DNA from: Gordonibacter massiliensis (ex Traore et al. 2017)
GTDB lineage: Bacteria; Actinomycetota; Coriobacteriia; Coriobacteriales; Eggerthellaceae
Length of the DNA stretch: 64,000 nt
Reading direction: 5' to 3'
Assembly (NCBI GenBank): GCA_900170005.1
Contig: LT827128.1
Location: 1,302,001-1,366,000 of the forward strand
The position numbers and the translations under genes were made by a program. This document shows positions 5,115-60,975 of the stretch, piece after piece. The number at the start of each line of letters is the position of its first letter. Within the stretch, counting starts at the first letter, position 1. The notes beneath the pieces were generated by a model, which saw only the letters and a list, made by a program, of their open reading frames with translations, made no database searches and was not told where the DNA came from.

Positions 5115-6272
5115 CTAGTCCTGCGCGTAGGCTTTGACCAGCTCGCGTCCCGCGATATGCACCATGATCTCGTCGGTGCCTCCGCCGAACCGGTTGCCGC
5201 GCGAATCGAGGAACAGGCGGCTCACGCGGGTCTCCTTCGTGTAGCCCAAACCGCCCATGATCTGCATGGCGTCGTCGCACACCTCGAAGCAGGAGCGCAC
5301 GGTGTAGCGCTTCAGAAGGGCCGAGTTGATGCGGATGGAGTTGCCGTTGTCCAGATCCCACAGCGTCTTGTACATGAACAGGCGCGCCGTCTGCAGTTTC
5401 GTCTCCATCTCGACCAGCTTCTCCTGCACGAGCTGGTAGCTGCCGATGTTCTTCTTGAAGCAGACGCGCTTCGAGCAATAGGCCGCAGCTTCGTCCATGG
5501 CGGCCTGGGCCAGGCCGAGGCTCCACGCGGACACGTTGCAGCGCTCGAGCTCGAGTCCGTGCATGAGGTTCTTGAAACCCTCGCCCGGATTGCCCACGCG
5601 CATGTCCTCGGTGGCCACGACGTCGTCTAGGTACACTTCGCAGAACGTCATCATCTGCTGGCCGATCTTCTCCAGCGGCGAGAAGCTCACGCCCTCGCTC
5701 TTCGTGGACACGAGCCACATGGACACGGCCGGGTTGTCGCGGCTCGGATCCTCCTCCTTGGCGAGCACGAGGATGTAAGGGTACTGGTCGCCGTCGCTCA
5801 CGAACGTCTTGCTGCCGTTCAGGCGGTACGTGCCGTCGGGCTGCTTGCGCGAGGTCGTGGACATGTTCTTGTTGTCGGAGCCGGCCTCGGGCTCCGAGAT
5901 GCCGAACACGAAGGGCGGGCGGCCCGTCTCGTGGTACGCGTCGACGCACATCTTGATCTGCTCGGGGCTGCCGAAACGCGTGATGTCGAACATGGCAACC
6001 GAGTTGTTGATGAACGGCACCGACGCGGCCGCGTAGTGGTAGACCGCCTCGAGGACCAGGCCGATGGTGAGCAGGTCGGCCGGAACGCCGCCGTATTCCT
6101 CGTCGATGCCGAGCAGGCCGAACCCCGCGTCCACCCACGCCTTGGTCACCTCGACCGGCACATGATGGTTCTCGTAGTACTCGCGCACCTGCTCCTCGCT
6201 GAAGTAGCGCTCGCAGTACTCCTTCACGCTCGCCACCATGAGCTCTTGCTCGTCCGTCAGATTGAAATCCAT
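5115..6272 (-). CDS. Acyl-CoA dehydrogenase/enoyl-CoA reductase (module 1)
   Basis: 385-residue flavoprotein of the ACAD family starting MDFNLTDEQELMVASVKEY. The FAD/substrate loop is ISEPEAGSDNKNM (about 125-137). The C-terminal position that holds the catalytic Glu in short- and medium-chain enzymes is glycine here (GGGTDEIM, 363-370), while Glu243 (LELERCNVSA) occupies the alternative position used by isovaleryl-CoA dehydrogenase. It resembles the ACAD at 44306 most, and CaiA more distantly. Its operon with ligase, CoA-transferase and fixABC suggests it works as a reductase or dehydrogenase coupled to the neighbouring ETF. The start is supported by AAAAAGGAGGAAAG upstream. Confidence 0.9.
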   Translation of the reverse strand: MDFNLTDEQELMVASVKEYCERYFSEEQVREYYENHHVPVEVTKAWVDAGFGLLGIDEEYGGVPADLLTIGLVLEAVYHYAAASVPFINNSVAMFDITRFGSPEQIKMCVDAYHETGRPPFVFGISEPEAGSDNKNMSTTSRKQPDGTYRLNGSKTFVSDGDQYPYILVLAKEEDPSRDNPAVSMWLVSTKSEGVSFSPLEKIGQQMMTFCEVYLDDVVATEDMRVGNPGEGFKNLMHGLELERCNVSAWSLGLAQAAMDEAAAYCSKRVCFKKNIGSYQLVQEKLVEMETKLQTARLFMYKTLWDLDNGNSIRINSALLKRYTVRSCFEVCDDAMQIMGGLGYTKETRVSRLFLDSRGNRFGGGTDEIMVHIAGRELVKAYAQD

Positions 6273-6335
6273 GCTTTCCTCCTTTTTCGCAGGCGCCGCA
6301 GCGCCCTTTGCCGATTCTTTTCCTCGCCCTGCCGC

Positions 6336-7595
6336 CTACGCCTCGCGCGACTCGCGCGGCAGCTTCTTCGCCTGGTTGAGCGCGAACCACCCCACCAGCA
6401 GCGAGAGCACCACGAGCGTCAAGGCGCCCACGAACATGGCGTTGTACCCGACGCCGTCGATCACGAAGCCCCACATGGACGAGCCGAACGCCAGGCACAG
6501 GTTCGCGAAGACCGACACGCGCGAGTAGATGAGGCTGTAATCGAGGCTGCCGAACACCGAGCGGGTGAGCAGCGGGATGTACACGGAGCCGTTCGCGTAG
6601 TACAGGCCGTACAGGAAGGCGGCCACCAAGATGATGGGCGCGTTCTGCGGCACGAGGAACAGGATGCCGACGCCCAGCAGGCCGCACGCCACGCCGAACA
6701 CCAGGCCGCCGCGCGTCGACTTGTCGGCGAGCGCGCCCATGGTCACCTTGCCGATGGCCTGTCCCAACATGACGGCGGAAGCGATGGTGGCCCCGATGGT
6801 GGGCACCGCCTCGGACACCGCGAGCGTGCTCACGTACGAGGGAAGGTAGTTGTAGATGCACGTGACCAAGTCGGCGAACCCGGCGAAAAGCGCCACCAGG
6901 ATGAACGGAATCGACCACATAGCAGCTTTGAGCGGAACGCCCTCCACCACGACGGCGCTCGGCTTGCCTTCGGGCACCTCGTCGGCGCCGTAGGGGCGCA
7001 GCCCCTTGTCGGACGGGTTGCTGCGCACGACGAACAGCGTGAACGGCAGCGCCAGCACGAGGGCGATGATGCCGAAGGCGAGGTAGCCGGTGCGCCAACC
7101 GAAATCGGCGATGATCCACCCGCCGATGGGGTTGAAGATGACGCCGCCGACGCCGGTGAAGGCCATGCAGATGCCCACGAAGAAGCCGACGCGCTTCTTG
7201 AACCAGCGGTCGATCAGCGTGGGCACGGCGATGAACATGAGGAAGGTGATGCCGAGCCCCAGCAGGAAGCCCGAGATGTAGAACTGCCACACCTCGGTGT
7301 AGAAGGACATGGCCATCAGTGCCACCGACACGCTCACCACCGCGGCCGACAGGCAGATCCGCGCGTCCTTCGTGGCGAACAGCTTGCCCGCGAACGGCAG
7401 GAACAGCGCAACCGTCAAGTACATCACCGTCATGTACAAGGCGAGCGTGCCCTTGCCCACACCCAGGTCGTCGCACACCGGCGTGTAGAAGATGCCGGCG
7501 CAGCTGAGCGCCAGCGCCGAGGGCCCGACGCACATGACGATGCCCGTCAGCACGATCAGGTACCCGTAGTGGAACCCTTTGGTTTTCGCTCCCAT
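6336..7595 (-). CDS. MFS transporter, oxalate/formate antiporter-like
   Basis: 419-residue integral membrane porter with about 12 helices, starting MGAKTKGFHYGYLIVLTG. I chose ATG 7595 because AAGGAGG stands 4 nt upstream; the open frame extends 38 codons further with non-membrane sequence. Helix signatures ALSCAGIFYTPVCDDLG and GFLLGLGITFLMFIAVPTLIDRWFKKR are typical of the OFA subfamily, which exchanges small carboxylates. It is the first gene of the module 1 operon, 63 nt before the ACAD, and probably imports the acid that the module processes or exchanges it with product. The TetR gene at 7867 is divergent. Confidence 0.88.
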   Translation of the reverse strand: MGAKTKGFHYGYLIVLTGIVMCVGPSALALSCAGIFYTPVCDDLGVGKGTLALYMTVMYLTVALFLPFAGKLFATKDARICLSAAVVSVSVALMAMSFYTEVWQFYISGFLLGLGITFLMFIAVPTLIDRWFKKRVGFFVGICMAFTGVGGVIFNPIGGWIIADFGWRTGYLAFGIIALVLALPFTLFVVRSNPSDKGLRPYGADEVPEGKPSAVVVEGVPLKAAMWSIPFILVALFAGFADLVTCIYNYLPSYVSTLAVSEAVPTIGATIASAVMLGQAIGKVTMGALADKSTRGGLVFGVACGLLGVGILFLVPQNAPIILVAAFLYGLYYANGSVYIPLLTRSVFGSLDYSLIYSRVSVFANLCLAFGSSMWGFVIDGVGYNAMFVGALTLVVLSLLVGWFALNQAKKLPRESREA

Positions 7596-50195: not shown

Positions 50196-53100
50196 CTACT
50201 TCGACGCGCGTCGCTTGCGAGCCGCGAGCGCTGCAGCCGCCGTAGCGAGGGATGCCAGCGCCAAGCCCACGACGAGCGGAGCCGCCGCGTCGCCCGTGCT
50301 CGCGAGCGCCTTCGGCTCGGCCGAGGCCTCGCCACCGCCCGACCCGGTGCTTTCGGCCGCAACGGACGCGGGCTCGAACACCGGCTCGTCCGCATCCTCG
50401 CCCGCGCCGAACCTCCACGCGCCCTCCCCCGCGCCGACCAGCCGCGCGCCGTAGCGGCTGTACAGCGCGTCGCCGTCGACCGCAAGACGATAGAGCTTCC
50501 CCGCTTCGAGTGCCCGCGGTAGAACCAGCCTGACAACCATGCCGTCCTCCGAAACCTGCACCTGCGGGCCGTTCGCATCGAGACGGGCCAGCTCGGCGCC
50601 GTCGGGCGCGCGCACCGCGAAGAAGCCGTGGCCCCGCTCCACGGGTTGGCTGAACGTCAGCTCCAGCGTCGCGGTGGCCGGGTCGTAGGAGACCGCGCCG
50701 TTCGCGGCCGAGAGTCGCGTCAGCGTGAGCGGCGCCGTGCACACGTTGAGCGACACTTCGGACTTCGACGTGCACGCCCCCGTCGACGACTTCCCCACCT
50801 CGATGGTCTCGATGATTTCCTGGGGCGTGTCGCTCGTGATGGTGAGCGAGGTCTTCCACTCTGCGCTTCTCTGGTCGCGTATGCGGTCGTACCCGTCGCG
50901 TCCGTCCGGCGCGACGGTCACGGGGCCCACGTACCAGTCGTCGTGGCCGTTGCCGCCCTTCTCGCCGCTGACGGAGTAGCGCCCCTCCGCGCTGTCCTGG
51001 GTCACCGTGAGCGTGCCGGGAAGCAAGGTGATGTCGTAGCAGTCGTCGCTTGCGCCGTAGAAAGCGATCTCATGCGCGCCGAGCTCCCACCAGCCGGAGA
51101 TGCGCGGCGCGCCCACGCTGTCGATTACGTCGGGCGTCTCGCCGTTCACCAGCCCTTCCACCGTATACGTGTAGTCCGGCTCGTCCTCGCCGTACAGGAT
51201 GGCCTGGTCGTCGGCCTTGATGGTGCAGGGGGCCTTTTCGACGGTGAGATACCCGGTGAAGCGCCCGTCCTCGTCCCTGTCGCCGTTCACCGTGTAGTAC
51301 GGCTCGTCGATGGCGATCTTGACCATATAGCGCCCCTCGCTCACCTCGCTGCTCGGCAACGTGGGCGGCTCGGACGTCAGCGTGTACACGTTGTAGCCTA
51401 GATCCTCGCGCCACAAGGGCCGCCAGTACTGCACCGTGTAGTGCGGGTTACCGGGAAGCTCCAGATCGAAGGCTGCCGGTTTGCCCGTGTAGGTCTTCGT
51501 CTGCACAAGATCGTCGGAGTGGAGGTCCACGACGCGGTTCTCGATGCGCGGCCACGGGTAGCCGTCGCGCTCGGCCAGCACGGCGGGCGCGGGGAAGTTC
51601 ATGGTTTGCGCAGGCACGCCCTCTTGCGCCGCAGCCCCCTCGTTCGCCCGCGTCTGCCAATGCGTCGGATCAGAGAACTTGAGCGCGGACAACGCACCTT
51701 CGCCGGTCATATCGACGATGGAAAGCCCGCCCACGTTGTTGTACTCGTCGTCCTTCACGGAGCCGCCGTTTGATACAAGCGCCCCTTCGATCTGCGTGTT
51801 CGATTCCGTTGCATACCAGCAGTTCTCCACCTTGCCCCGCAGTCCCGACGAGTAGGACGCGACGCCGCCGGCATAGCTCGCCTCGATGTCGGGCGCGGTC
51901 ACGCGCCCGCCGTTGTAGCAGTCTTCGATGGTGCCGTACGCATAGCAGCGGCCGACGATGCCGCCCGCGTAGGCGTGCTCCTGCTCCTCGACGGAAACCT
52001 CGCCGATGTTGAGGCTCTCGGTCACAGAGCTGTCGGCGAGGGGAACAGAAGAGGCCATCTCGCCCACGACGCCGCCCGCCTCGTTTCTGCCGAGCACCCG
52101 GGCATGGTTGGCGCATCCCTTGATCCTCGAAGGGTCGCCCGAAGTCGGGCCTTCCGAGGACCCCGCGACGCCGCCCACCCCTTCGCCGCCCGTCACCTTG
52201 CCGGTGTTGTACGAAGCGTACACGCCGTCGATGCGGTAGACGGAGCCGACGAGGCCGCCGGTCGCGTCGTTGCCCGTCACGCTGGCCGTGTTCGAGCCGG
52301 ACTCGATACGCGCGCCGTCGCCCTCCGCGCGACCGACCAGGCCGCCGGTCGAGTAGCCGCCCGTCACCTTGCCGTCGTTCCCGGCAGAACGCACGACGGC
52401 GTTCGCAGCGGCCATGCTGCCCACGATACCGCCCGTGTGCCTGTCACCGCTGACGGCGCCGACGTTCGAGCATCCGTCCAGCACGGCGCCCGCGCCCTCG
52501 ATGCGGCCCGCCAAGCCGCCAACCCCCTCAGGGTTCTTCGCTTCCTCGTCGACGGACACGGCGGCGTCGTTGGCGCATGCCGACAGGGTCGCGCGCGCAC
52601 CCGTCACGAGCCCGTAGATGCCGCCCACGCCGCTGTCGCCGCGCACCGGTGCCGTGTTCGTGTACGACGCGAGCGCGAAGTCATCCGCCGCCAGCTCGCC
52701 GATGAAACCGCCGGTCGCGTCATGCCCGACAACGCCTCCGCTGCAGGAGACGTCTTCCAGATGCGCGCCCGCGCCCGACAGCCGCCCGACGGCGCCACCG
52801 ATCTTTCCGCCCCAGCAGGAGACAAGACCGTCATGGGAAGCCCCTTCCACCTGCGCGCTGACGCCCGACAGGCTGCCCACGAGCCCGCCGGTTATCGAGG
52901 CACCCCAGGTCTTGCCGACGCACGAGCAGTTCGTTATCCGCGCGTTCGCACCGGACAGCTCGCCCACCAGGCCGCCCGTCACATCATCGCCTTGAACCTC
53001 GCTGCGCACGTTGCAATCGGAAATCTGCGCGTCATCGCCCGCAAGCCTTCCCACCAGGCCGCCCGTGCGATCGCCGCCCCACAGGAAGTCCGTTTCGACG

Positions 53101-55805
53101 CGGCAATCCTGAACGTGCAACCGATCGCCCGTCACCGCGCCCACCAAGCCGCCCACGCCGTCGGCATCCGGCGCCATGATGTCCTCCTCGCACGCGCACG
53201 CGCGGATGAGCACGTCGTCGCCGGACACGAGTCCCGCCGCGCCGCCGGCCATGCTGCCTTCGGGCATCGCGCTTCCTATGCAGTTGTACAGCATCGCGTT
53301 GCTGCGGACCTCGCCCGCAAGGGAGCCGCACGGTTCGCCGTCGGCGCGCGGAACGCCGTCCACTTTCACGTTCATGATCCTACCGCCGTCGAGCACGGCC
53401 GCCAATCCAGCCATGTCGTATGACAGCGTGACGGTATGCCCCATGCCGTCGAATTTGCCGCGATACCCCTGCGCGCCGCCCAACCCGGCGAACACTGTGC
53501 CCAGGTAGATGTCGTTTGCCAGCACGTAGTTCTGATCGGGATGGTTCGCGGCCTCAAGCAGATCGTCCGCAGTGTAGAGAAAGGCGAACTCCTCGAACAC
53601 CGGCTCCTCCGAACCGTCGAGCTCTTGGCTTTCGAAGTCGTGCCGCGACACGACGCCGGAGTATCCGACGCCGAGCGCGGCCGCCGCCCCACCCGGCGCG
53701 AACGGGGCCAGCAGCGGATAGCAGCGCAGCTCGGACGCGCCGTCATGCGATGTCGAGCGCGCGCTCGTGTACGACCACCGGCCGTCGCCCAGCTCGTCGC
53801 GCAAGCCCTCTTCCAACATCTGGTCGGTCGTGCGCCCCTCGACGCGGACGTCGTTGTCGTTGGTCGAGTTGTTGCCCACCGGGGAGAGGTTCACGCGGTC
53901 GGCGTTGTAGTACAGATCGCTCAGGCGGGAGTTCCCCGTGCTCTTGTTGCGCGTGCCGACGAATGCTCCCACGTCGTCCGAGCCCGAGACGCCGCCCGCC
54001 ACGTAGCATTCGCTCAAGCTGCGCGGCTGGGGCGTGTCCGTCATGTCGCCCGCGATACCGCCCACCGCGCTTTCGCCCTCCACGTCGCCCGTGGAGTAGC
54101 AGTACGCGATATCCGCACTCGCGTCGCCCACGACGCCGCCCACCCGCAGGTTGCCGTGCACGGCTCCCTCGCTGAAGCAATCCTCCAGGTAGTGGCCGCT
54201 CAGATAGCCCACCACACCGCCGCAGCCCGTTCCGGTTCCCGTCACGGCACCGTAGTTGGCGCACAGGCCGAGCGCGTGGTCCAACCCGATGGGCACCTTG
54301 AAGATCACCTTCGAAGCCGAGGTGCTGCCCACGATGCCGCCCACGTTGTCCACGCCGCTCACGTCACCGTCGTTCAAAAGCGACTGGGCCATGCCGAACG
54401 TCTTGTTGTCGCCGATCACGCCGCCGACTTCCGAGCGGCCCTGCACGGCACCGTGGTTCACGCACAGCAAGACGCCGGCGTTGTTGGCGCCCACGATGCC
54501 GCCCACGCCGTCGCCCGTGCCCGACACGGCGCCGTCGTTCTCGCACCCCGTAATGTAGCAGTCGTAATCGATCTCGGGGCTGATGCTGCCCACGATGCCG
54601 CCGACCGAGCCGTCGCCCGACACGGTGCCGTGATTCTCGCAGTTCTCCAGAACGCCCTTGCCGTCCAAATGCGCCAGGATGCCGCCCGTCAGCGAGTTGT
54701 TGTCGGAGCTGGTGTTCGCCACGGCACCGTGGTTCGCGCAGTTGATCGCATGCGCGTCGTCGTTGAAGTAAAGAAAGCAACCGGCCGCATCGGCAACCGT
54801 GCCCGTGATGTTCCCGTAATTGACGCAGCTTTCGAAAACCGCCTTGCCCTCCGCGCGGGTTGCGATGCCCGCACCCTGCCCCTCGAGGTCGAGATGGCTC
54901 TCGCAAGACGCGATGCGGCCCGACGACGACAGCGCGATGCCGCCGACGGCCGTTCCCTGCAAGTCGCCGTCCGCGGTGCAGCCTTCGATGACGCCGCCGG
55001 CCTCGTTGAAACACGCGATGCCACCCACCAGGCCCACCGGCCCGATGGCGCAGTCCAGCTTCACGTTGCGGATGGTGCCGCTGTTCTCGTACGCCAGCGC
55101 CGAGGCGTACATGACGGCGGCGGGTTCGAGGGAATTGGACGTGGTGACCGCTCCGGTTATGAGCAGGTTCTCGATCAGGCCGGCGTTCTTGCGGAACATC
55201 GACAGAAAGGAGATGCCACCGTCGGCCGTCCCGCGCACGAAGCGAACGTCCATCGCGAGCTCGATTCGCGCGCCGTTGCCGTCGAAGCGCCCGGTGAACG
55301 TCGCATCGATGGGAGCGAAATCGGACTTCGGCCGAAACGTCGAGGGGGCGAGGTAGTAGTTCCCGTCGGCCGGATACGCGGGGTCTTTCCCGACCTTCGC
55401 CAGCTCGGCGTCGTTTTCGACGTAGATGGCCTCCTGCGGGCCGCTCCCGTCACCGAAATCATGCTGCTTCTTCGTGGGAGCGCTCGCGAACAGGGCGTTG
55501 GAAGCCGCGTCCTCGGCGCCGTCGGGCGCAGGCGCGTTCACGGCGTTGTCGGGCGCCAACGGGGCCTCGCCGGACACCGTGTTCTCGGGCACGGGCTTGG
55601 CGGCGCCGTCGGCTGCGGGTTCGCCCGTCGCCTCCGGCGGGGTCTCGCCGGGCGCCGTCCCGCCGGTTGCGGTTTCGTCGGGAATCGTCTCGCCGGCCGG
55701 GGGCGTCGCCCCAGGCTCCTCGGCGAAGGCGGCCGCGGGCACGAGCCCCAGCGCCAGAACCAGCGCCAGCGCCATCGAGAACGCGCGCTTCCCCTTAGTT
55801 TCCAT
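50196..55805 (-). CDS. Large cell-wall-anchored surface protein with GLUG-type repeats
   Basis: 1869 residues. The signal peptide is METKGKRAFSMALALVLALGLVPAAAFA (cleavage near 28), followed by a Pro/Thr/Glu-rich stretch to about residue 95. A very long repeat region of about 1250 residues has units like VGGIVG..SG..I.NC.N.G.V.G (GLUG-type, probably a beta-helix). An MBG-like beta domain follows (YTGKPAAFDLELPG ... ILYGEDEPDYTYTVEGLVNGE), then an Ig-like domain with FSQPVERGHGFFAV. The end is a sortase signal: LASTGD, a hydrophobic helix, and RKRRASK. It probably serves adhesion or binding of host or bacterial surface. Transcription is monocistronic. The start ATG 55805 fits the signal peptide; the earlier open frame has none. 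Confidence 0.88.
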   Translation of the reverse strand: METKGKRAFSMALALVLALGLVPAAAFAEEPGATPPAGETIPDETATGGTAPGETPPEATGEPAADGAAKPVPENTVSGEAPLAPDNAVNAPAPDGAEDAASNALFASAPTKKQHDFGDGSGPQEAIYVENDAELAKVGKDPAYPADGNYYLAPSTFRPKSDFAPIDATFTGRFDGNGARIELAMDVRFVRGTADGGISFLSMFRKNAGLIENLLITGAVTTSNSLEPAAVMYASALAYENSGTIRNVKLDCAIGPVGLVGGIACFNEAGGVIEGCTADGDLQGTAVGGIALSSSGRIASCESHLDLEGQGAGIATRAEGKAVFESCVNYGNITGTVADAAGCFLYFNDDAHAINCANHGAVANTSSDNNSLTGGILAHLDGKGVLENCENHGTVSGDGSVGGIVGSISPEIDYDCYITGCENDGAVSGTGDGVGGIVGANNAGVLLCVNHGAVQGRSEVGGVIGDNKTFGMAQSLLNDGDVSGVDNVGGIVGSTSASKVIFKVPIGLDHALGLCANYGAVTGTGTGCGGVVGYLSGHYLEDCFSEGAVHGNLRVGGVVGDASADIAYCYSTGDVEGESAVGGIAGDMTDTPQPRSLSECYVAGGVSGSDDVGAFVGTRNKSTGNSRLSDLYYNADRVNLSPVGNNSTNDNDVRVEGRTTDQMLEEGLRDELGDGRWSYTSARSTSHDGASELRCYPLLAPFAPGGAAAALGVGYSGVVSRHDFESQELDGSEEPVFEEFAFLYTADDLLEAANHPDQNYVLANDIYLGTVFAGLGGAQGYRGKFDGMGHTVTLSYDMAGLAAVLDGGRIMNVKVDGVPRADGEPCGSLAGEVRSNAMLYNCIGSAMPEGSMAGGAAGLVSGDDVLIRACACEEDIMAPDADGVGGLVGAVTGDRLHVQDCRVETDFLWGGDRTGGLVGRLAGDDAQISDCNVRSEVQGDDVTGGLVGELSGANARITNCSCVGKTWGASITGGLVGSLSGVSAQVEGASHDGLVSCWGGKIGGAVGRLSGAGAHLEDVSCSGGVVGHDATGGFIGELAADDFALASYTNTAPVRGDSGVGGIYGLVTGARATLSACANDAAVSVDEEAKNPEGVGGLAGRIEGAGAVLDGCSNVGAVSGDRHTGGIVGSMAAANAVVRSAGNDGKVTGGYSTGGLVGRAEGDGARIESGSNTASVTGNDATGGLVGSVYRIDGVYASYNTGKVTGGEGVGGVAGSSEGPTSGDPSRIKGCANHARVLGRNEAGGVVGEMASSVPLADSSVTESLNIGEVSVEEQEHAYAGGIVGRCYAYGTIEDCYNGGRVTAPDIEASYAGGVASYSSGLRGKVENCWYATESNTQIEGALVSNGGSVKDDEYNNVGGLSIVDMTGEGALSALKFSDPTHWQTRANEGAAAQEGVPAQTMNFPAPAVLAERDGYPWPRIENRVVDLHSDDLVQTKTYTGKPAAFDLELPGNPHYTVQYWRPLWREDLGYNVYTLTSEPPTLPSSEVSEGRYMVKIAIDEPYYTVNGDRDEDGRFTGYLTVEKAPCTIKADDQAILYGEDEPDYTYTVEGLVNGETPDVIDSVGAPRISGWWELGAHEIAFYGASDDCYDITLLPGTLTVTQDSAEGRYSVSGEKGGNGHDDWYVGPVTVAPDGRDGYDRIRDQRSAEWKTSLTITSDTPQEIIETIEVGKSSTGACTSKSEVSLNVCTAPLTLTRLSAANGAVSYDPATATLELTFSQPVERGHGFFAVRAPDGAELARLDANGPQVQVSEDGMVVRLVLPRALEAGKLYRLAVDGDALYSRYGARLVGAGEGAWRFGAGEDADEPVFEPASVAAESTGSGGGEASAEPKALASTGDAAAPLVVGLALASLATAAAALAARKRRASK

Positions 55806-55983
55806 GCGACCACCCCGTTCACGTCGAGCCGTCCGAAGTCGTCCGCACGAACACGGCCAGCCTATGCGGCGCGGGCGATATCGGCTATGAAATAAGTGTA
55901 CGTCGCATCGTGACCAGGGCGCGGATCCGTACCTGCCAGATCGGCCCCATTCGTGCCAGAACCGCCGCACCTGCGGCAAAAAC

Positions 55984-56196: not shown

Positions 56197-56997
56197 CTAG
56201 GCAGACTTTTCCAAGAGAACCATTCCCGCATTGCAATCGGCCTCCTTGGTGGATGCGGTCTGTTCCCGAGGAGCATACCCTGCAGCCGAGACCGTCAGGC
56301 GGTAATCCGCCTCCTTCAGGTTCCTGAACCAGAAGTCGCCGAATTCGTCGGTTGCCGTCTCCAGGGCCTCGAAAGAACCGTCAAGAGGCTCCAGGGACAC
56401 CTTCGCCCCTATGACCACCTCGTCGGCCGCGTCGTCGATGACCTGACCAGCGACCCATCGCTGGGGAAGATTGAGGTAATAGACGTTCGATTCGGGGTCG
56501 AGCCTCTCCGCCTTGCCGATCTCTTCCGCAAAGTCGCTTTCATCGCCGAAGCGCAAACCTCCCACCGGGCAGGCGTCGACGCAGCGCGGGACGCTCCAGC
56601 CGTCGTCTATCAGGTGCGCGCAACCGGTGCATCCCTGGGGAATCTCCAGCGCCTCGTTCCAATAGATACCCTCGAATTCGTCCGCCAGGTCCTTGCGGCC
56701 CTTCGCCTTCTTCGGATCGATGACGATCAGCCCGTCGTCCCTGTCCATAAGCAACTCGGGAGCGTAATCCCGCACGGCATCGCTTTGGGCTCCGATTATC
56801 GGCGTGTACGTGATATTGACCTTCGGGACGCTTCCGTGCACCTCCTCTTGCACCTTGCACCAGAATTGCCCCGTGTCCGGTTGCTCCGCGGCATACGGAA
56901 GCCAAGCGGTACCGCAGTGCTCGTCCTTGCAGGCGATTTGGCAGCTATGGCAGCCATTGCACCTATCAACGTCTATTACAAACACTTTCCTGGACAT
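56197..56997 (-). CDS. Iron-sulfur subunit, pyrogallol-transhydroxylase-like, with reduced cluster set
   Basis: 266 residues. It is the electron-transfer partner of the molybdoenzyme encoded next to it. N-terminal ligands Cys13, 16, 19, 23 (CNGCHSCQIAC) and the set Cys123, 126, 139, 143 (CTGCAHLIDDGW..RCVDAC) suffice for two [4Fe-4S] clusters. As I recall it, the Pelobacter transhydroxylase small subunit has a further CxxCxxxxC and a fourth Cys giving three clusters; here that region (about 62-110) has no Cys. The C-terminal third (about 181-262) is a transthyretin-like beta barrel, also present in that enzyme. There is no signal peptide, so it is cytoplasmic. It starts 27 nt after the large subunit gene. 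GGAGAGGATGGAAAC precedes ATG 56997. Confidence 0.87.
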   Translation of the reverse strand: MSRKVFVIDVDRCNGCHSCQIACKDEHCGTAWLPYAAEQPDTGQFWCKVQEEVHGSVPKVNITYTPIIGAQSDAVRDYAPELLMDRDDGLIVIDPKKAKGRKDLADEFEGIYWNEALEIPQGCTGCAHLIDDGWSVPRCVDACPVGGLRFGDESDFAEEIGKAERLDPESNVYYLNLPQRWVAGQVIDDAADEVVIGAKVSLEPLDGSFEALETATDEFGDFWFRNLKEADYRLTVSAAGYAPREQTASTKEADCNAGMVLLEKSA

Positions 56998-57024
56998 GTT
57001 TCCATCCTCTCCACAGAGCCTTAT

Positions 57025-59706
57025 TTAAGCTTGAACGATTTTCGTGCTGGCGAGAGCGCCCTCGGACTTGTCGAACGGCCGATTGAACTGGTCGGGGTAT
57101 TTCTCGGCCAATTCGAAAACATCGACCTTTTCGATGCCGACGAGGAAGCCGTTGGTCACCTCGCCGGGAGCGTTCTTGGAAGTCGTCGCGCTCGGGCAGA
57201 TGAGGTTGTTCGCGCCGCCGCGATCGAGCCCGCCCGTGCCGAGGACGATGCCGTCCACACGCGCTCCGTGGTCTTGGCTCAAAACGTTCTCGCGGATGCG
57301 CTCGGTTGTCATCGCCCCGCCCAAAACGCTGCCGCGTTCGTTGTACAGACGAACGATGTCGCCGTCCTCGATGCCAAGCCTTTCGGCATCGCGCGGGTTG
57401 ATCCAAACGGGTTCGTACTGGTACCCGTCGGGCCCCGTGACCTTGCATGTCGCAATCTCGCGGAACCAAGTGATGTCGTCTCCCTGCGCATGAACGCGCC
57501 AGCGAGGGTGGTTCGACATGAGCAAGAAAGGATAGTCCTTGGCCCGATCGCTCGACAGGCGCTCTTTGTGCTCGTCGGACTCTTCGATCCAATGCGGAAC
57601 CTCAGGTCGCTCAGGGTCGTTCGGCCAATGCTCGTGGATGCTCAGCGAGTAGAACTCGATCTTGCCCGTCGGCGTTTCGAGCGGGTTGTTCTCGGGGTCT
57701 TCGTAGAACGCGCGCATGCCGACAGGATCGCTTTTCCAATCGGCTTCGTCCTTGAAGCGAATGGGCAGGTATCCCTTTTCTTGGAATTTCTCAAACGGCA
57801 TATGCTCGCTGCATCCGCCGAATTCGTAACCGACGCGCTTCATCGTTTCAAACGACGGCTCGCCCATGATGTGGCCTACCTGGTCGGGCGCGATCTGTCC
57901 ACCCGACTTGCCGGCAACGGCGCCCTTCAAATCGGGGGAATAGCACCACTCTTCCATAAGCTCTTCCGCCATGCCGAGCTTTTCAGCGATAGCCAATACG
58001 GCTTCCGCATCGGTCTTGGCCTCGCCAAGCGGATCGATCGCCGGCAACTCATCGACCACCATGTCGTTTTCACCGCACTGGAACGACGTCCCGATGTCGT
58101 CCTGCTCGAATTTGGTCGAGATGGGCAAGATGATATCGGCGAACAGCGTGTCGTTCTCCATCCAAGGATGCTGCACGAGGTAAAACTCTATCGACTCGTC
58201 GCGCAGGGCCTCTTGCATGGTGTTCCCGCCGTTCCAGCACGTCGACCAGCAAGGAGTGTCCGTCCAGATCATATGTATGCGCTCGGCACCAGGAAGCGGG
58301 AACTCGTAGTCGACGTACTGGTCCTCCAGCGGCATGTTGCAAACGACGCGTCCCGGCCAGGTGAGCTTTTCCCCTTCGGGCATAAGGATCGCTTTCGGAA
58401 CCAGCGTTTGCGGGATGAAGCTCGTGAGGTACGTTCCTTGGACATGCCCGGAATAAGCCGCCCACATGAAGGTGCCCCACTCGCCCTTGGGAAGCGAGTT
58501 CAAGCCCTCCATGCCGAACAACCCCCACTCGATGAACTTGAACATCGTACGGCCGGGAGCCCCCACGCCCTGCATCGCGAGAAGGGCGACCTCCAAACGC
58601 GCAGGCTCCGTCGAGAAGCAGCTGCGGATGTACCCGCCGCCGTTGCAGTGAGCCGTTGAGACGTTGCGCGTTGCCCAATAGCGCGCAAGCGCCTTGATCT
58701 CCGCCGCCGGAACGCCGCATTTCGACTCTGCCCACCGAGGGGTTTTGGGAATACCGTCCTCGCCGCCCATGACGTAGCGTTCGAACCAATCGAATCCCTC
58801 GGTATGCGTTGCGACGTACTCTTTTTCGTAGGTTCCCTCTTCGATCCAGGTATAGGCTATTCCCAGCCAAAGGGCGGCGTCGGTGTTCGGAAGCGGGGTT
58901 ATCCATTTGTCCGCATGGATCGCCGCGCCGTAATTGAGGTCCGGGCAAATGTATATCTGCTTGATGCCGATCTCCAACCAGAAATAGCTGATCTTGGAGG
59001 CCATGAAGCCGCCCCAACCCCAGGGCGTGGTCTCGGGATCGCAACCGACGCAGATAACGGCGTCGGCGTTCTCGCTGATATCCCAAAGCGTGTTCTCCTG
59101 CAAGGCCTGCTGGCCGAGCGGATTCATGCCCCACATGTGCTTGGCGCCCCAATACCAGCCTTCCCAGCTGTCCGGCTGCCTTGCTTGGAGGGTGAAGCCG
59201 CCCATCAGGCCCATGAGGCGGGTGTTGCAGCCATGGCTTGCATGTATGACCTTGGTTTCGCCATGCCCGTCGCCCTGGCAGAGAATCGAGTAATTCCCGT
59301 ACGTGTCTATGACGCGGCGAATCTCATCGGCGCAAATCTGGGTCGCCTCGTCCCAGCTGATGCGCTCGTACTTCGAGATGCCGCGGTTTTGCGGGTTCCT
59401 CTCGCCCTGAGGGTCCCAATCCACGCGCTTGAGCGGGTAAGGAACTCGGTTCGGAGAATAGACGCGCTTCTTGTAGGCAAGCGCCATGGGCGACACCGTA
59501 GTGGTCATGCCGCTCGTAAGGGTGTGGCCCCTCACCTCGATCTTCCATGGATTGATCTCGTCTTCGGCGTATTCCTCGTCGAAATGCACGGGGCGGATGC
59601 GGGCGATCTTGCCGTCTTTGACGTCAACGGCAGCCGTATTGCTGCCCGATGCGAATCCGCACCATCCCGTGGTCTTGTAGACCGTTTTATCCTGTGTGCT
59701 TGCCAT
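57025..59706 (-). CDS. Molybdopterin oxidoreductase large subunit, transhydroxylase/catechol-dehydroxylase-like
   Basis: 893 residues of the DMSO-reductase superfamily. Without an N-terminal Tat signal or N-terminal Fe-S Cys motif, it fits the pyrogallol-phloroglucinol transhydroxylase and acetylene-hydratase branch (Pelobacter alpha subunit 875 residues). Conserved stretches are PYPLKRVDWDPQGERNPQ, YERISWDEAT and PDSWEGWYWGAKHMWG. His148, Asp179 and Ser180 match the Pelobacter active-site His144, Asp174 and the Mo-ligand Ser175. Related two-subunit enzymes in Eggerthella and Gordonibacter remove hydroxyl groups from catechols, so a reductive dehydroxylase of a dietary or host phenol is likely; the substrate is unknown. 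GAGGAGG precedes ATG 59706. The LysR gene is upstream on the same strand. Confidence 0.88.
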   Translation of the reverse strand: MASTQDKTVYKTTGWCGFASGSNTAAVDVKDGKIARIRPVHFDEEYAEDEINPWKIEVRGHTLTSGMTTTVSPMALAYKKRVYSPNRVPYPLKRVDWDPQGERNPQNRGISKYERISWDEATQICADEIRRVIDTYGNYSILCQGDGHGETKVIHASHGCNTRLMGLMGGFTLQARQPDSWEGWYWGAKHMWGMNPLGQQALQENTLWDISENADAVICVGCDPETTPWGWGGFMASKISYFWLEIGIKQIYICPDLNYGAAIHADKWITPLPNTDAALWLGIAYTWIEEGTYEKEYVATHTEGFDWFERYVMGGEDGIPKTPRWAESKCGVPAAEIKALARYWATRNVSTAHCNGGGYIRSCFSTEPARLEVALLAMQGVGAPGRTMFKFIEWGLFGMEGLNSLPKGEWGTFMWAAYSGHVQGTYLTSFIPQTLVPKAILMPEGEKLTWPGRVVCNMPLEDQYVDYEFPLPGAERIHMIWTDTPCWSTCWNGGNTMQEALRDESIEFYLVQHPWMENDTLFADIILPISTKFEQDDIGTSFQCGENDMVVDELPAIDPLGEAKTDAEAVLAIAEKLGMAEELMEEWCYSPDLKGAVAGKSGGQIAPDQVGHIMGEPSFETMKRVGYEFGGCSEHMPFEKFQEKGYLPIRFKDEADWKSDPVGMRAFYEDPENNPLETPTGKIEFYSLSIHEHWPNDPERPEVPHWIEESDEHKERLSSDRAKDYPFLLMSNHPRWRVHAQGDDITWFREIATCKVTGPDGYQYEPVWINPRDAERLGIEDGDIVRLYNERGSVLGGAMTTERIRENVLSQDHGARVDGIVLGTGGLDRGGANNLICPSATTSKNAPGEVTNGFLVGIEKVDVFELAEKYPDQFNRPFDKSEGALASTKIVQA

Positions 59707-59862: not shown

Positions 59863-60822
59863 CTATTCGTCGTTCTTTTTTGCGGATTCCTCGATCGTCA
59901 GATTTGAAGACGCGCTGAATTGGAGCAGCTTCGGAATAACCGATATAGCCGATGCGGCCTGCACTCCCCTTTTCAGCGTTTTCAGAATAGGCTCGAGGTC
60001 ATCGGTTTTCACGGTTGGATACATCACGAGTATGGATCGCCATATTTCCGGCTCTACGATCGGAAGATGCCGTTTTTCCGAAAGCATCGTTAGGGGCGCG
60101 GTCATGAGAGACGACCGGAAATGTATCACGTTCGGGTCGACCATGGATGCAAAGTACTCTTCCGAGCTGGATTCCCGAACGTTTTCCCAGTTCATTCCGA
60201 TCTCGTCGAGAAATTCATAGTACCAAGGGCTGACGCCATCGAGATCGGTCGGCACGGTAACCTTCAGATGGGTTATCTCGTTGCATTCGATCGAGTCCTT
60301 GTCCGAGAACGGAGGTTTGTTTGGAAGCGATACGAAAAGCTGCTCTCTCGTCAATTCAAAGGAATCGAAGCCTGGTACAGAACGAGATTTCGAGAGGAAA
60401 ACAAAATCGTATAGCCCTTTGATCAATCCCGATAGAACCGCAGACTCGTCATCGATCGTCACCTTGAAATTCAAATCTGGATGAGCGTTAGCCACGTACG
60501 CCATCTCCGAATTGGCCAAGGTGGGATAGAAAGAGCCAACCCGTATCGTTCGCGCATCGATTCGTTTCCGACGTGCTATCTCCTCCTCGATCTCGTTTGC
60601 GAGAAAAAGGATTCTTTCAGCGCGGTCGAGCACGATTTTCCCATAGAGAGTCGGCTTCAGGGGAGAATGCGTGCGATCGATGAGCGTGCATCCCAATTCG
60701 GATTCGAGCTTCTTGATGTTTTGGCTCAGGGCAGACTGCGAAATATAGAAGTTATCCGCAGCGACCTTCATTGAGCCGCTGTGGATCGTGTTCACAAACA
60801 AATTCAATTGGAATAGATTCAT
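59863..60822 (-). CDS. LysR-family regulator of the molybdoenzyme
   Basis: 319 residues from ATG 60822 (MNLFQLNLFVNTIHSGSMKVAADNFYISQSALSQNIKKLESELG). The helix-turn-helix is followed by an effector domain with FVSLPNKPPFSDKDS. The ribosome-site position is a run of 10 G (60829-60838) 6 nt before the ATG. An upstream in-frame ATG at 60852 would translate through the G-run (MKFVLGGGSPMNLF), so slippage could change expression or the N-terminus. It lies directly upstream of the molybdoenzyme genes with a palindromic site between, so it is their probable regulator. GC content is visibly lower here than in neighbouring genes, hinting at acquisition. Confidence 0.87.
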   Translation of the reverse strand: MNLFQLNLFVNTIHSGSMKVAADNFYISQSALSQNIKKLESELGCTLIDRTHSPLKPTLYGKIVLDRAERILFLANEIEEEIARRKRIDARTIRVGSFYPTLANSEMAYVANAHPDLNFKVTIDDESAVLSGLIKGLYDFVFLSKSRSVPGFDSFELTREQLFVSLPNKPPFSDKDSIECNEITHLKVTVPTDLDGVSPWYYEFLDEIGMNWENVRESSSEEYFASMVDPNVIHFRSSLMTAPLTMLSEKRHLPIVEPEIWRSILVMYPTVKTDDLEPILKTLKRGVQAASAISVIPKLLQFSASSNLTIEESAKKNDE

Positions 60823-60828
60823 CGGCGA

Positions 60829-60838
60829 CCCCCCCCCC
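60829..60838. repeat. Homopolymer tract of 10 at the lysR start
   Basis: Ten C on the plus strand (G10 on the coding strand) directly upstream of the lysR ATG, at the place of the Shine-Dalgarno sequence. Confidence 0.85.
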
Positions 60839-60975
60839 AGAACGAACTTCATTCTTGCACAAAGGATTCCACCTTTGCAAGCATGCGGATCTGCGGCGGA
60901 TGGCGAATTCGAGCAAACGCGGCGGCGAGCGCGTCCCATGCCCCCTTCGTTCGTTTCATCTGCCCTTCCATGAAA

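Follow-up and report, generated by a model that had tools for sequence, protein, structure and literature searches.

A transhydroxylase-like molybdoenzyme of Gordonibacter massiliensis with a predicted two-cluster small subunit and a conserved segment in place of the third cluster site

Introduction

The pyrogallol-phloroglucinol transhydroxylase (TH) of Pelobacter acidigallici, AthL/AthS (structure 4v4c), represents a group of two-subunit molybdenum enzymes in which serine is the metal ligand (PMC10100899). The resorcinol hydroxylase RhL/RhS of Azoarcus anaerobius, whose RhL is grouped with PgtL in the Ser-ligated family (PMC10100899), can be likened to the enzyme studied here by description only. 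The published catechol dehydroxylases cluster beside acetylene hydratase and apart from pyrogallol hydroxytransferase (PMC7028382). The bacterial group to which Gordonibacter belongs uses catechols as electron acceptors, reducing them (PMC7028382, PMC11574389). Here we report the analysis of a gene pair from Gordonibacter massiliensis (Eggerthellaceae), located within a 64,000-nucleotide stretch (the window; assembly GCA_900170005.1, contig LT827128.1, positions 1,302,001 to 1,366,000) of a genome that consists of one 3.95-Mb contig. The pair encodes a TH-like catalytic subunit and a small subunit that appears to hold two [4Fe-4S] clusters, with a conserved cysteine-free segment at the site of the third.

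To our knowledge, the wire formed by a multi-cluster ferredoxin-like subunit is generally regarded as fixed. Close relatives with four, three or two clusters and a conserved replacement would make the role of the distal cluster testable, whether it lies in donor choice, in potential tuning or in nothing at all. The enzymes described here would also add to the molybdoenzymes of gut Eggerthellaceae a second set that probably acts on phenols and differs from the catechol dehydroxylases investigated to date.

Ligands and fold of the small subunit

Both genes lie on the minus strand as intact open reading frames (ORFs), the large (catalytic) subunit gene at 57025..59706 (893 aa; an AthL/pyrogallol transhydroxylase-like bis(molybdopterin guanine dinucleotide), or bis-MGD, protein) and the small (electron-transfer) subunit gene at 56197..56997 (266 aa). 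The small subunit contains 11 Cys residues, at positions 13, 16, 19, 23, 28, 47, 123, 126, 139, 143 and 255. Eight of them form motif I (CxxCxxCxxxC, Cys 13/16/19/23; 56929..56961, minus strand) and motif IV (CxxCx12CxxxC, Cys 123/126/139/143; 56569..56631, minus strand) of a ferredoxin-like fold and are the predicted ligands of the two remaining clusters, so that the protein would hold two [4Fe-4S] clusters. The TH small-subunit sequence provides 12 ligand Cys, and we take that protein to carry three such clusters. In the alignment with TH chain B (4v4c_B; E 3.1e-30, 33.6% identity over 232 aligned residues), the CxxCxxxxC set and a later Cys-Pro are missing from the Gordonibacter protein, and with them all four third-cluster ligands, as an earlier sequence-only reading of the locus had proposed. 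Residues 69-122 contain neither Cys nor His, and an alternative four-ligand set for a third cluster was not found among the 11 Cys. The other candidate ligands, Cys28 and Cys47, are two Cys only and by themselves would not make an ordinary four-Cys [4Fe-4S] site; they also occur alongside third-site ligands in homologs (23/72 and 10/72 rows of the 92-row set described below). As a side observation, both are commoner in two-cluster rows (19/20 and 14/20, raw counts uncorrected for kinship).

A Pfam scan assigned 4Fe-4S domains and CarboxypepD_reg to the small subunit, the latter as a transthyretin-like domain at residues 182-250 (PF13620; 56248..56454, minus strand) that matches carboxypeptidase D with Z about 12, and the barrel noted in the sequence-only reading is therefore retained. 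The AlphaFold2 model of the small subunit alone has a mean predicted local distance difference test score (pLDDT) of 95.3, with 94-98 in the blocks that replace the third site, and aligns on 4v4c_B by VIA-align with Z 26.1 and a root-mean-square deviation of 1.9 over 256 residues, in a superposition restricted to the chains ranked by Foldseek. In this model, the predicted fold is kept although the ligands of the third site are gone.

The segment that replaces these ligands, which we call the GAQ cassette (residues 69-122; 56632..56793, minus strand), is itself conserved. We compiled a 92-row set comprising the window proteins, Pelobacter TH and 90 of the 112 small subunits found, the other 22 having been dropped because the large subunit was absent or short, the small subunit was short, or the entry was a duplicate. 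Twenty rows are two-cluster and carry the conserved replacement, and residues G69, Q71, A79, R101, D103 and G110 of the cassette are present in all 20; elsewhere, five of these are rare or absent (G69 0/72, A79 3/72, R101 7/72, D103 8/72, G110 0/72). A replacement that is both conserved and recurrent across relatives argues that the loss is neither decay nor chance.

The Cys of motifs I and IV were invariant in a 59-row alignment, and the 92-row set contained a single exception, L188, which lacks motif I; in that entry (genome G124) the motif is apparently absent through a disturbed reading frame, possibly an assembly error. This invariance suggests that the two-cluster wire is under constraint. 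The sequence-only reading had taken the shortened wire as a hint of either a different electron donor or a redox-neutral reaction: the shortening stands, and redox-neutral decay is disfavoured by the strict conservation of the remaining clusters. The half of the small subunit with motifs I and IV would be the one adjoining the large subunit. If the geometry is that of NarH and FdnH, as we assume, losses would run from the far end of the wire and the motif I and IV clusters would be the proximal ones.

Placement of the large subunit

The large subunit matches PF21423 (AhtL-like domain 1) with 42.3 bits against a cut-off of 27, as well as PF00384 and PF01568; no Fe4S4 domain was listed for it in the Pfam scan, and its first 110 residues contain a single Cys (C16). 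Inspection of its N-terminus by eye revealed no twin-arginine signal. It scores 423 bits against Pelobacter transhydroxylase (4v4c_A; 37.8% identity over 735 aligned residues) and 37 bits against acetylene hydratase, and TH is by far the nearest solved structure for both subunits, in agreement with the transhydroxylase-like character first read from the sequence. The active-site residues noted in that reading are also kept: His148 (59263..59265, minus strand) and Asp179-Ser180 (59167..59172, minus strand) occupy the alignment columns of TH His144 and Asp174-Ser175. Equivalents of the three residues are present in 71/71, 69/71 and 70/71 of the other three- and four-cluster homologs, respectively; being near-universal, they identify the family, not the reaction. 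The position of TH Tyr404, which we take to be a catalytic residue of TH, is Leu405 here, in a stretch that is unconserved and poorly aligned.

By PF21423, the closest solved relatives of both subunits, the His-Asp-Ser set and the transthyretin-like domain, the enzyme is placed on the AthL (pyrogallol transhydroxylase) side of the dimethyl sulfoxide reductase superfamily. Both subunits are homologous to AthL/AthS over most of their length and share the small-subunit fold and its C-terminal domain; unlike AthL/AthS, the window enzyme has the GAQ cassette instead of third-cluster ligands, a shorter loop at residues 168-170 and an unconserved Tyr404 region. Since the three-cluster feature is missing, it is probably not a transhydroxylase proper.

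A change in the large subunit coupled to the two-cluster trait was sought and rejected as a candidate. The column that follows the trait best, E709, has a lineage-weighted frequency of 0.98 in two-cluster enzymes and 0.19 in the others.

Distribution of cluster number among relatives

The family search gave matches at E <= 1e-40 in 53 of the 138 Eggerthellaceae genomes. A census of the listed places (G017:C27 was left out, and the matches in G036 and G057 are unlisted) yielded 148 distinct small subunits from 51 genomes: 118 three-cluster, seven four-cluster, one with an incomplete third-site group, and 22 two-cluster, the last spread over 17 genomes. Two of these 22 deviate from the common form. 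L127, the same gene as L188, is without motif I, and L204 (genome G041, 5965-6813) keeps a single third-site Cys and the second half of the cassette and has no GAQ; it is possibly an intermediate or a chimera. The genome of the window itself holds five further pairs (L039-L043) of the same architecture; unlike the window pair, all five keep the 12-Cys set, and their large subunits are 41.6-58.3% identical to that of the window.

The family spans four-, three- and two-cluster members. Classification by regular expressions found 24 rows from outside Eggerthellaceae with all four motif groups, L063, L066 and L087 among them, in addition to L096 with a variant. The 12 rows listed by name are Chloroflexota metagenome-assembled genomes and one Actinomycetota metagenome-assembled genome (L082). 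In a three-cluster subgroup (L059, L061, L064, L069, L079, L080), Leu appears to stand in for the third Cys of CxxCxxxxC, possibly marking a [3Fe-4S] or differently ligated site.

Origin of the two-cluster state

In the large-subunit tree of the 92-row set, the two-cluster state requires six changes, all of them forced by starred branches. The small-subunit tree with residues 60-110 removed likewise requires six changes, four of them forced, and a 117-row large-subunit tree, for which 111 of the small subunits in the census came with a usable large subunit, requires seven, five of them forced. Forcing all two-cluster rows into one clade lowers the log-likelihood by 1767 units in the 92-row set and by 1848 units in the 117-row set, and the single clade receives p = 0.0003 in the approximately unbiased (AU) test on the 92-row set.

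Two-cluster lineages that have a three-cluster sister resemble that sister outside the cassette and other two-cluster lineages inside it. The clearest case is L045, a member of the window's own lineage (lineage i), whose cassette sides with lineage iii over its own lineage at 14:2 positions inside versus 15:41 outside (Fisher p 1.8e-5), in a comparison restricted to two-cluster sequences. With L045 and L188 as the focus, five comparisons gave p values of 1.5e-5 to 1.8e-4, and with L047 the counts were 5:1 inside versus 13:43 outside (p 0.006). That some cassettes resemble those of another branch more than those of their own points to the exchange of a ready-made segment. The trait recurs among relatives, and the segment may be mobile. 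Raised amino acid identity within the cassette was considered as a sign of transfer by itself and rejected, as three-cluster proteins are also raised there.

Proposed function and alternatives

We propose that the LysR-type regulator gene described below and the large- and small-subunit genes form one unit, probably induced by the substrate. Its product would be a bis-MGD molybdoenzyme of the AthL clade, cytoplasmic and Ser-ligated, acting on a phenolic hydroxyl of a diet- or host-derived compound, with the phenol likely bound at the Ser-ligated molybdenum. Reductive removal of the hydroxyl is the leading choice of reaction, favoured because the group uses catechols as electron acceptors and because the two remaining clusters are invariant. 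Electrons would reach the molybdenum through only two [4Fe-4S] clusters, those of motifs I and IV. A conserved folded segment takes the place of the third site, so the docking point of the donor would be the second cluster. Several branches reached the two-cluster state, most likely through recombination of the cassette among paralogs, the cause that we suggest for the observed mosaics, and a loop close by is shortened too. The joint explanation, comprising a reductive phenol enzyme, a two-cluster wire, a donor at the second cluster and cassette recombination, is the one we consider best, and we lean modestly towards it. More tentatively, and with confidence somewhat short of even, we suggest that wire length is modular in the AthL clade of gut Eggerthellaceae, in that paralogs have swapped a ready-made piece of some 54 residues, which removes a whole [4Fe-4S] site and re-targets the enzyme to a different donor with the catalytic subunit unchanged.

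A number of observations speak against this explanation. On its genetic side, the trees are of the 'quick' kind and contain several long branches, and on the larger set the AU value for a single clade is marginal (p = 0.046). With the window protein as the focus, the exchange comparison is not significant (2:2 inside versus 12:41 outside, p 0.25). Conservation in region 69-122 is intrinsically higher than in the remainder of the protein, three-cluster members included, and recent transfer was rejected as synonymous codon identity inside the cassette is not consistently raised. No large-subunit column tracks cluster number perfectly, and nine of the 15 two-cluster rows with at least 800 nt of upstream sequence have no LysR gene directly upstream. 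The shortened loop (residues 168-170; 56488..56496, minus strand), about four residues shorter than in most three- and four-cluster homologs, looks like a structural requirement: its gap columns are empty in 20/20 two-cluster rows and in 1/72 others. L051 and L204 carry divergent cassette versions, which leaves room for convergence. On the functional side, TH works during fermentative growth (PMC10100899), which makes the reductive reaction a guess from lifestyle. A literature search covering open-licence papers, mostly titles and the beginnings of abstracts, returned no substrate, donor or activity for an Eggerthellaceae enzyme of the AthL clade; within the same scope no two-cluster member of the family was described.

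The last of the genetic points are those expected if each branch lost the third cluster independently, without recombination, and the sequences became similar since only this sequence packs. The loop is a second, separate site that is shortened along with the loss, the intervening stretch 123-165 does not clearly favour other two-cluster lineages over its own sisters, and in L051 and L204 the solution seems to differ in part. The cassettes of L045 and L188, however, are more like lineage iii than like their own lineage, which would not be expected from convergence after loss, and we regard such convergence as rather doubtful. As for the reaction, the enzyme might be a true transhydroxylase or isomerase-like enzyme that transfers a hydroxyl between phenols without net redox change, its clusters serving only priming or structure, so that the loss of one would be neutral. 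The nearest solved relative catalyses just such a transfer and His148, Asp179 and Ser180 are kept; cluster number also varies among close relatives, the three-cluster L043 sitting among two-cluster relatives in the large-subunit tree, where two more three-cluster rows join it in the 117-row tree. That the replacement is conserved rather than decayed and that the other eight Cys are invariant weigh against this reading, as may the Leu at the Tyr404 position, a point that depends on an unreliable alignment. Such a redox-neutral enzyme seems unlikely to us. Less probable still is an oxidative hydroxylase like RhL, which would add a water-derived hydroxyl and release electrons through the two-cluster wire. 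RhL shares one Ser-ligated family with PgtL, and the members named in it hydroxylate (PMC10100899), but the bacteria of this group reduce catechols as acceptors (PMC7028382, PMC11574389), and no ring-degradation gene was recognised among the inspected neighbours of the pair (serA, leuA, aldehyde dehydrogenase, LysR and surface-type protein genes).

Relation to the catechol dehydroxylases

The sequence-only reading had further suggested an uncharacterised catechol dehydroxylase. Membership of that family finds no support in the TH and acetylene hydratase scores given above, and by similarity scores, rather than a joint tree with the published sequences, the window enzyme appears to lie outside the catechol dehydroxylase clade; chemistry like theirs is possible. 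The features of the Eggerthella-type dehydroxylases Dadh, Hcdh and Cadh, namely a twin-arginine translocation (Tat) signal, a four-cluster subunit and a membrane anchor gene, differ from those of the window enzyme, which has two clusters, no recognised membrane-anchor gene directly adjoining the pair and, judged by eye, no Tat motif. The Gordonibacter-type dehydroxylases (Dodh, Cldh, Gp Hcdh, Gs Vadh, Eadh1-3) are likewise two-subunit bis-MGD enzymes without signal peptide from the same bacteria. They belong, however, to another clade, near acetylene hydratase (PMC7028382; for Gs Vadh this placement is our deduction), and the catalytic subunit of Gp Hcdh has 770 aa (PMC11585353) compared with 893 aa here. 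Gordonibacter dehydroxylases have been predicted to carry fewer clusters than those of Eggerthella, a statement that concerns the catechol dehydroxylase clade (PMC11574389).

The closest named relative found, in a scan of the best 80 of 187 relatives, is Gordonibacter sp. 28C, which holds the closest copy found of the pair (NZ_PPTR01000011.1, L044; 98.4% identity in the large and 94.4% in the small subunit), with a two-cluster small subunit and no notable difference from the window pair. This raises the question of whether the enzyme is a known Gordonibacter-type dehydroxylase, such as Gs Vadh (C1878_02750) itself. The genus, the two subunits and a LysR gene are as described for Gs Vadh (PMC11887054), and a crude density of 0.58-0.73 ORFs per kb would put the 550th gene near the ortholog of the window pair, provided that ORF density equals gene density and that contigs are numbered in the file order of the 28C genome (G067). 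The Gs Vadh cluster, however, has two transporters, whereas the unit in strain 28C (serA, LysR, large subunit, small subunit, surface protein) has none, and AthL is an outgroup in the tree of the Vadh paper (PMC11887054). Another locus of the same strain, G067:C12 80760-88371, fits better: it comprises a LysR gene, two genes called transporter-like by eye rather than by Pfam, and a molybdenum enzyme that is acetylene-hydratase-like (253 bits), has an Fe4S4 domain and does not have TH among its best 60 rows. Its distance from the start would be about 662 kb if the 446,845-base contig comes after the 581,271-base one, an estimate from those G067 contigs that were measured, and would then imply 0.83 genes per kb for a 550th gene. 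This value agrees with 2979 genes in G. pamelaeae 3C (PMC11585353) and 3.6 Mb for another strain of the species, and disagrees with our own crude ORF counts. We infer that the G067:C12 locus is Gs Vadh; identity of the window enzyme with Gs Vadh or another known member is, in our judgement, very improbable. Near identity to a characterised dehydroxylase, which the sequence-only reading had raised as a possible objection, accordingly does not seem to apply, as the closest copy apparently misfits the Vadh cluster.

Locus and neighbourhood

A LysR-type regulator gene (59863..60939, minus strand; PF00126, PF03466) adjoins the large-subunit gene upstream on the same strand, so that the gene order is LysR, large subunit, small subunit. 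Its likely start is near 60822, because the helix-turn-helix match begins only at residue 44. Genes near the pair encode SerA, LeuA, an aldehyde dehydrogenase, the LysR protein and a surface-type protein, and no membrane-anchor gene was recognised directly adjoining the subunit pair. The surface-type protein corresponds to a 1927-aa ORF beside the pair (50196-55979, minus strand) with MBG_2 and GLUG matches and a C-terminus that by eye is hydrophobic and ends in Arg/Lys; a similar ORF adjoins the same pair in Gordonibacter sp. 28C, where the neighbours of L044 match those of the window (serA, LysR, large and small subunits, large surface-type protein, leuA).

Among loci with at least 800 nt upstream, a LysR gene lies directly upstream on the same strand in 4/4 other lineage i loci (L044, L045, L047, L191) and directly upstream in 2/3 rows of lineage iii (L189, L190), and in 0/8 of the remaining two-cluster rows; overall it was found in 6/15 two-cluster rows compared with 2/66 three- and four-cluster rows. 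As a mark of all two-cluster enzymes LysR was therefore rejected. It accompanies the lineage of the window and the lineage whose cassette L045 resembles, not the two-cluster state in general, and it is common to both lineages with exchanged-looking cassettes and rare elsewhere. A search with the window LysR alone gave no match beside L203, L225 or L048.

Two further loci were noted. The three-cluster pair L043 of the window's own genome (1997-8483) has a neighbourhood, with a two-component LuxR-type regulator, an FKBP-type protein and a small conserved protein, that seems common to the two-cluster relatives L192 and L197 of other genera (neighbours called by eye for L043 and partly by Pfam for L192 and L197); locus is alike here and cluster number unlike. 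In a search of four genomes (that of the window, G066, G067 and G068), an Amidohydro_2 protein stood beside an AthL-type pair only at L048, which lends no support to the idea that the ellagic-acid (eam) cluster includes an AthL-type enzyme. L048 (571-3427, minus strand) of Gordonibacter sp. 28C is a three-cluster pair near this Amidohydro_2 protein and a GerE/LuxR-type regulator; the Amidohydro_2 protein has a Tat-like start by eye and is possibly a phenolic acid decarboxylase partner.

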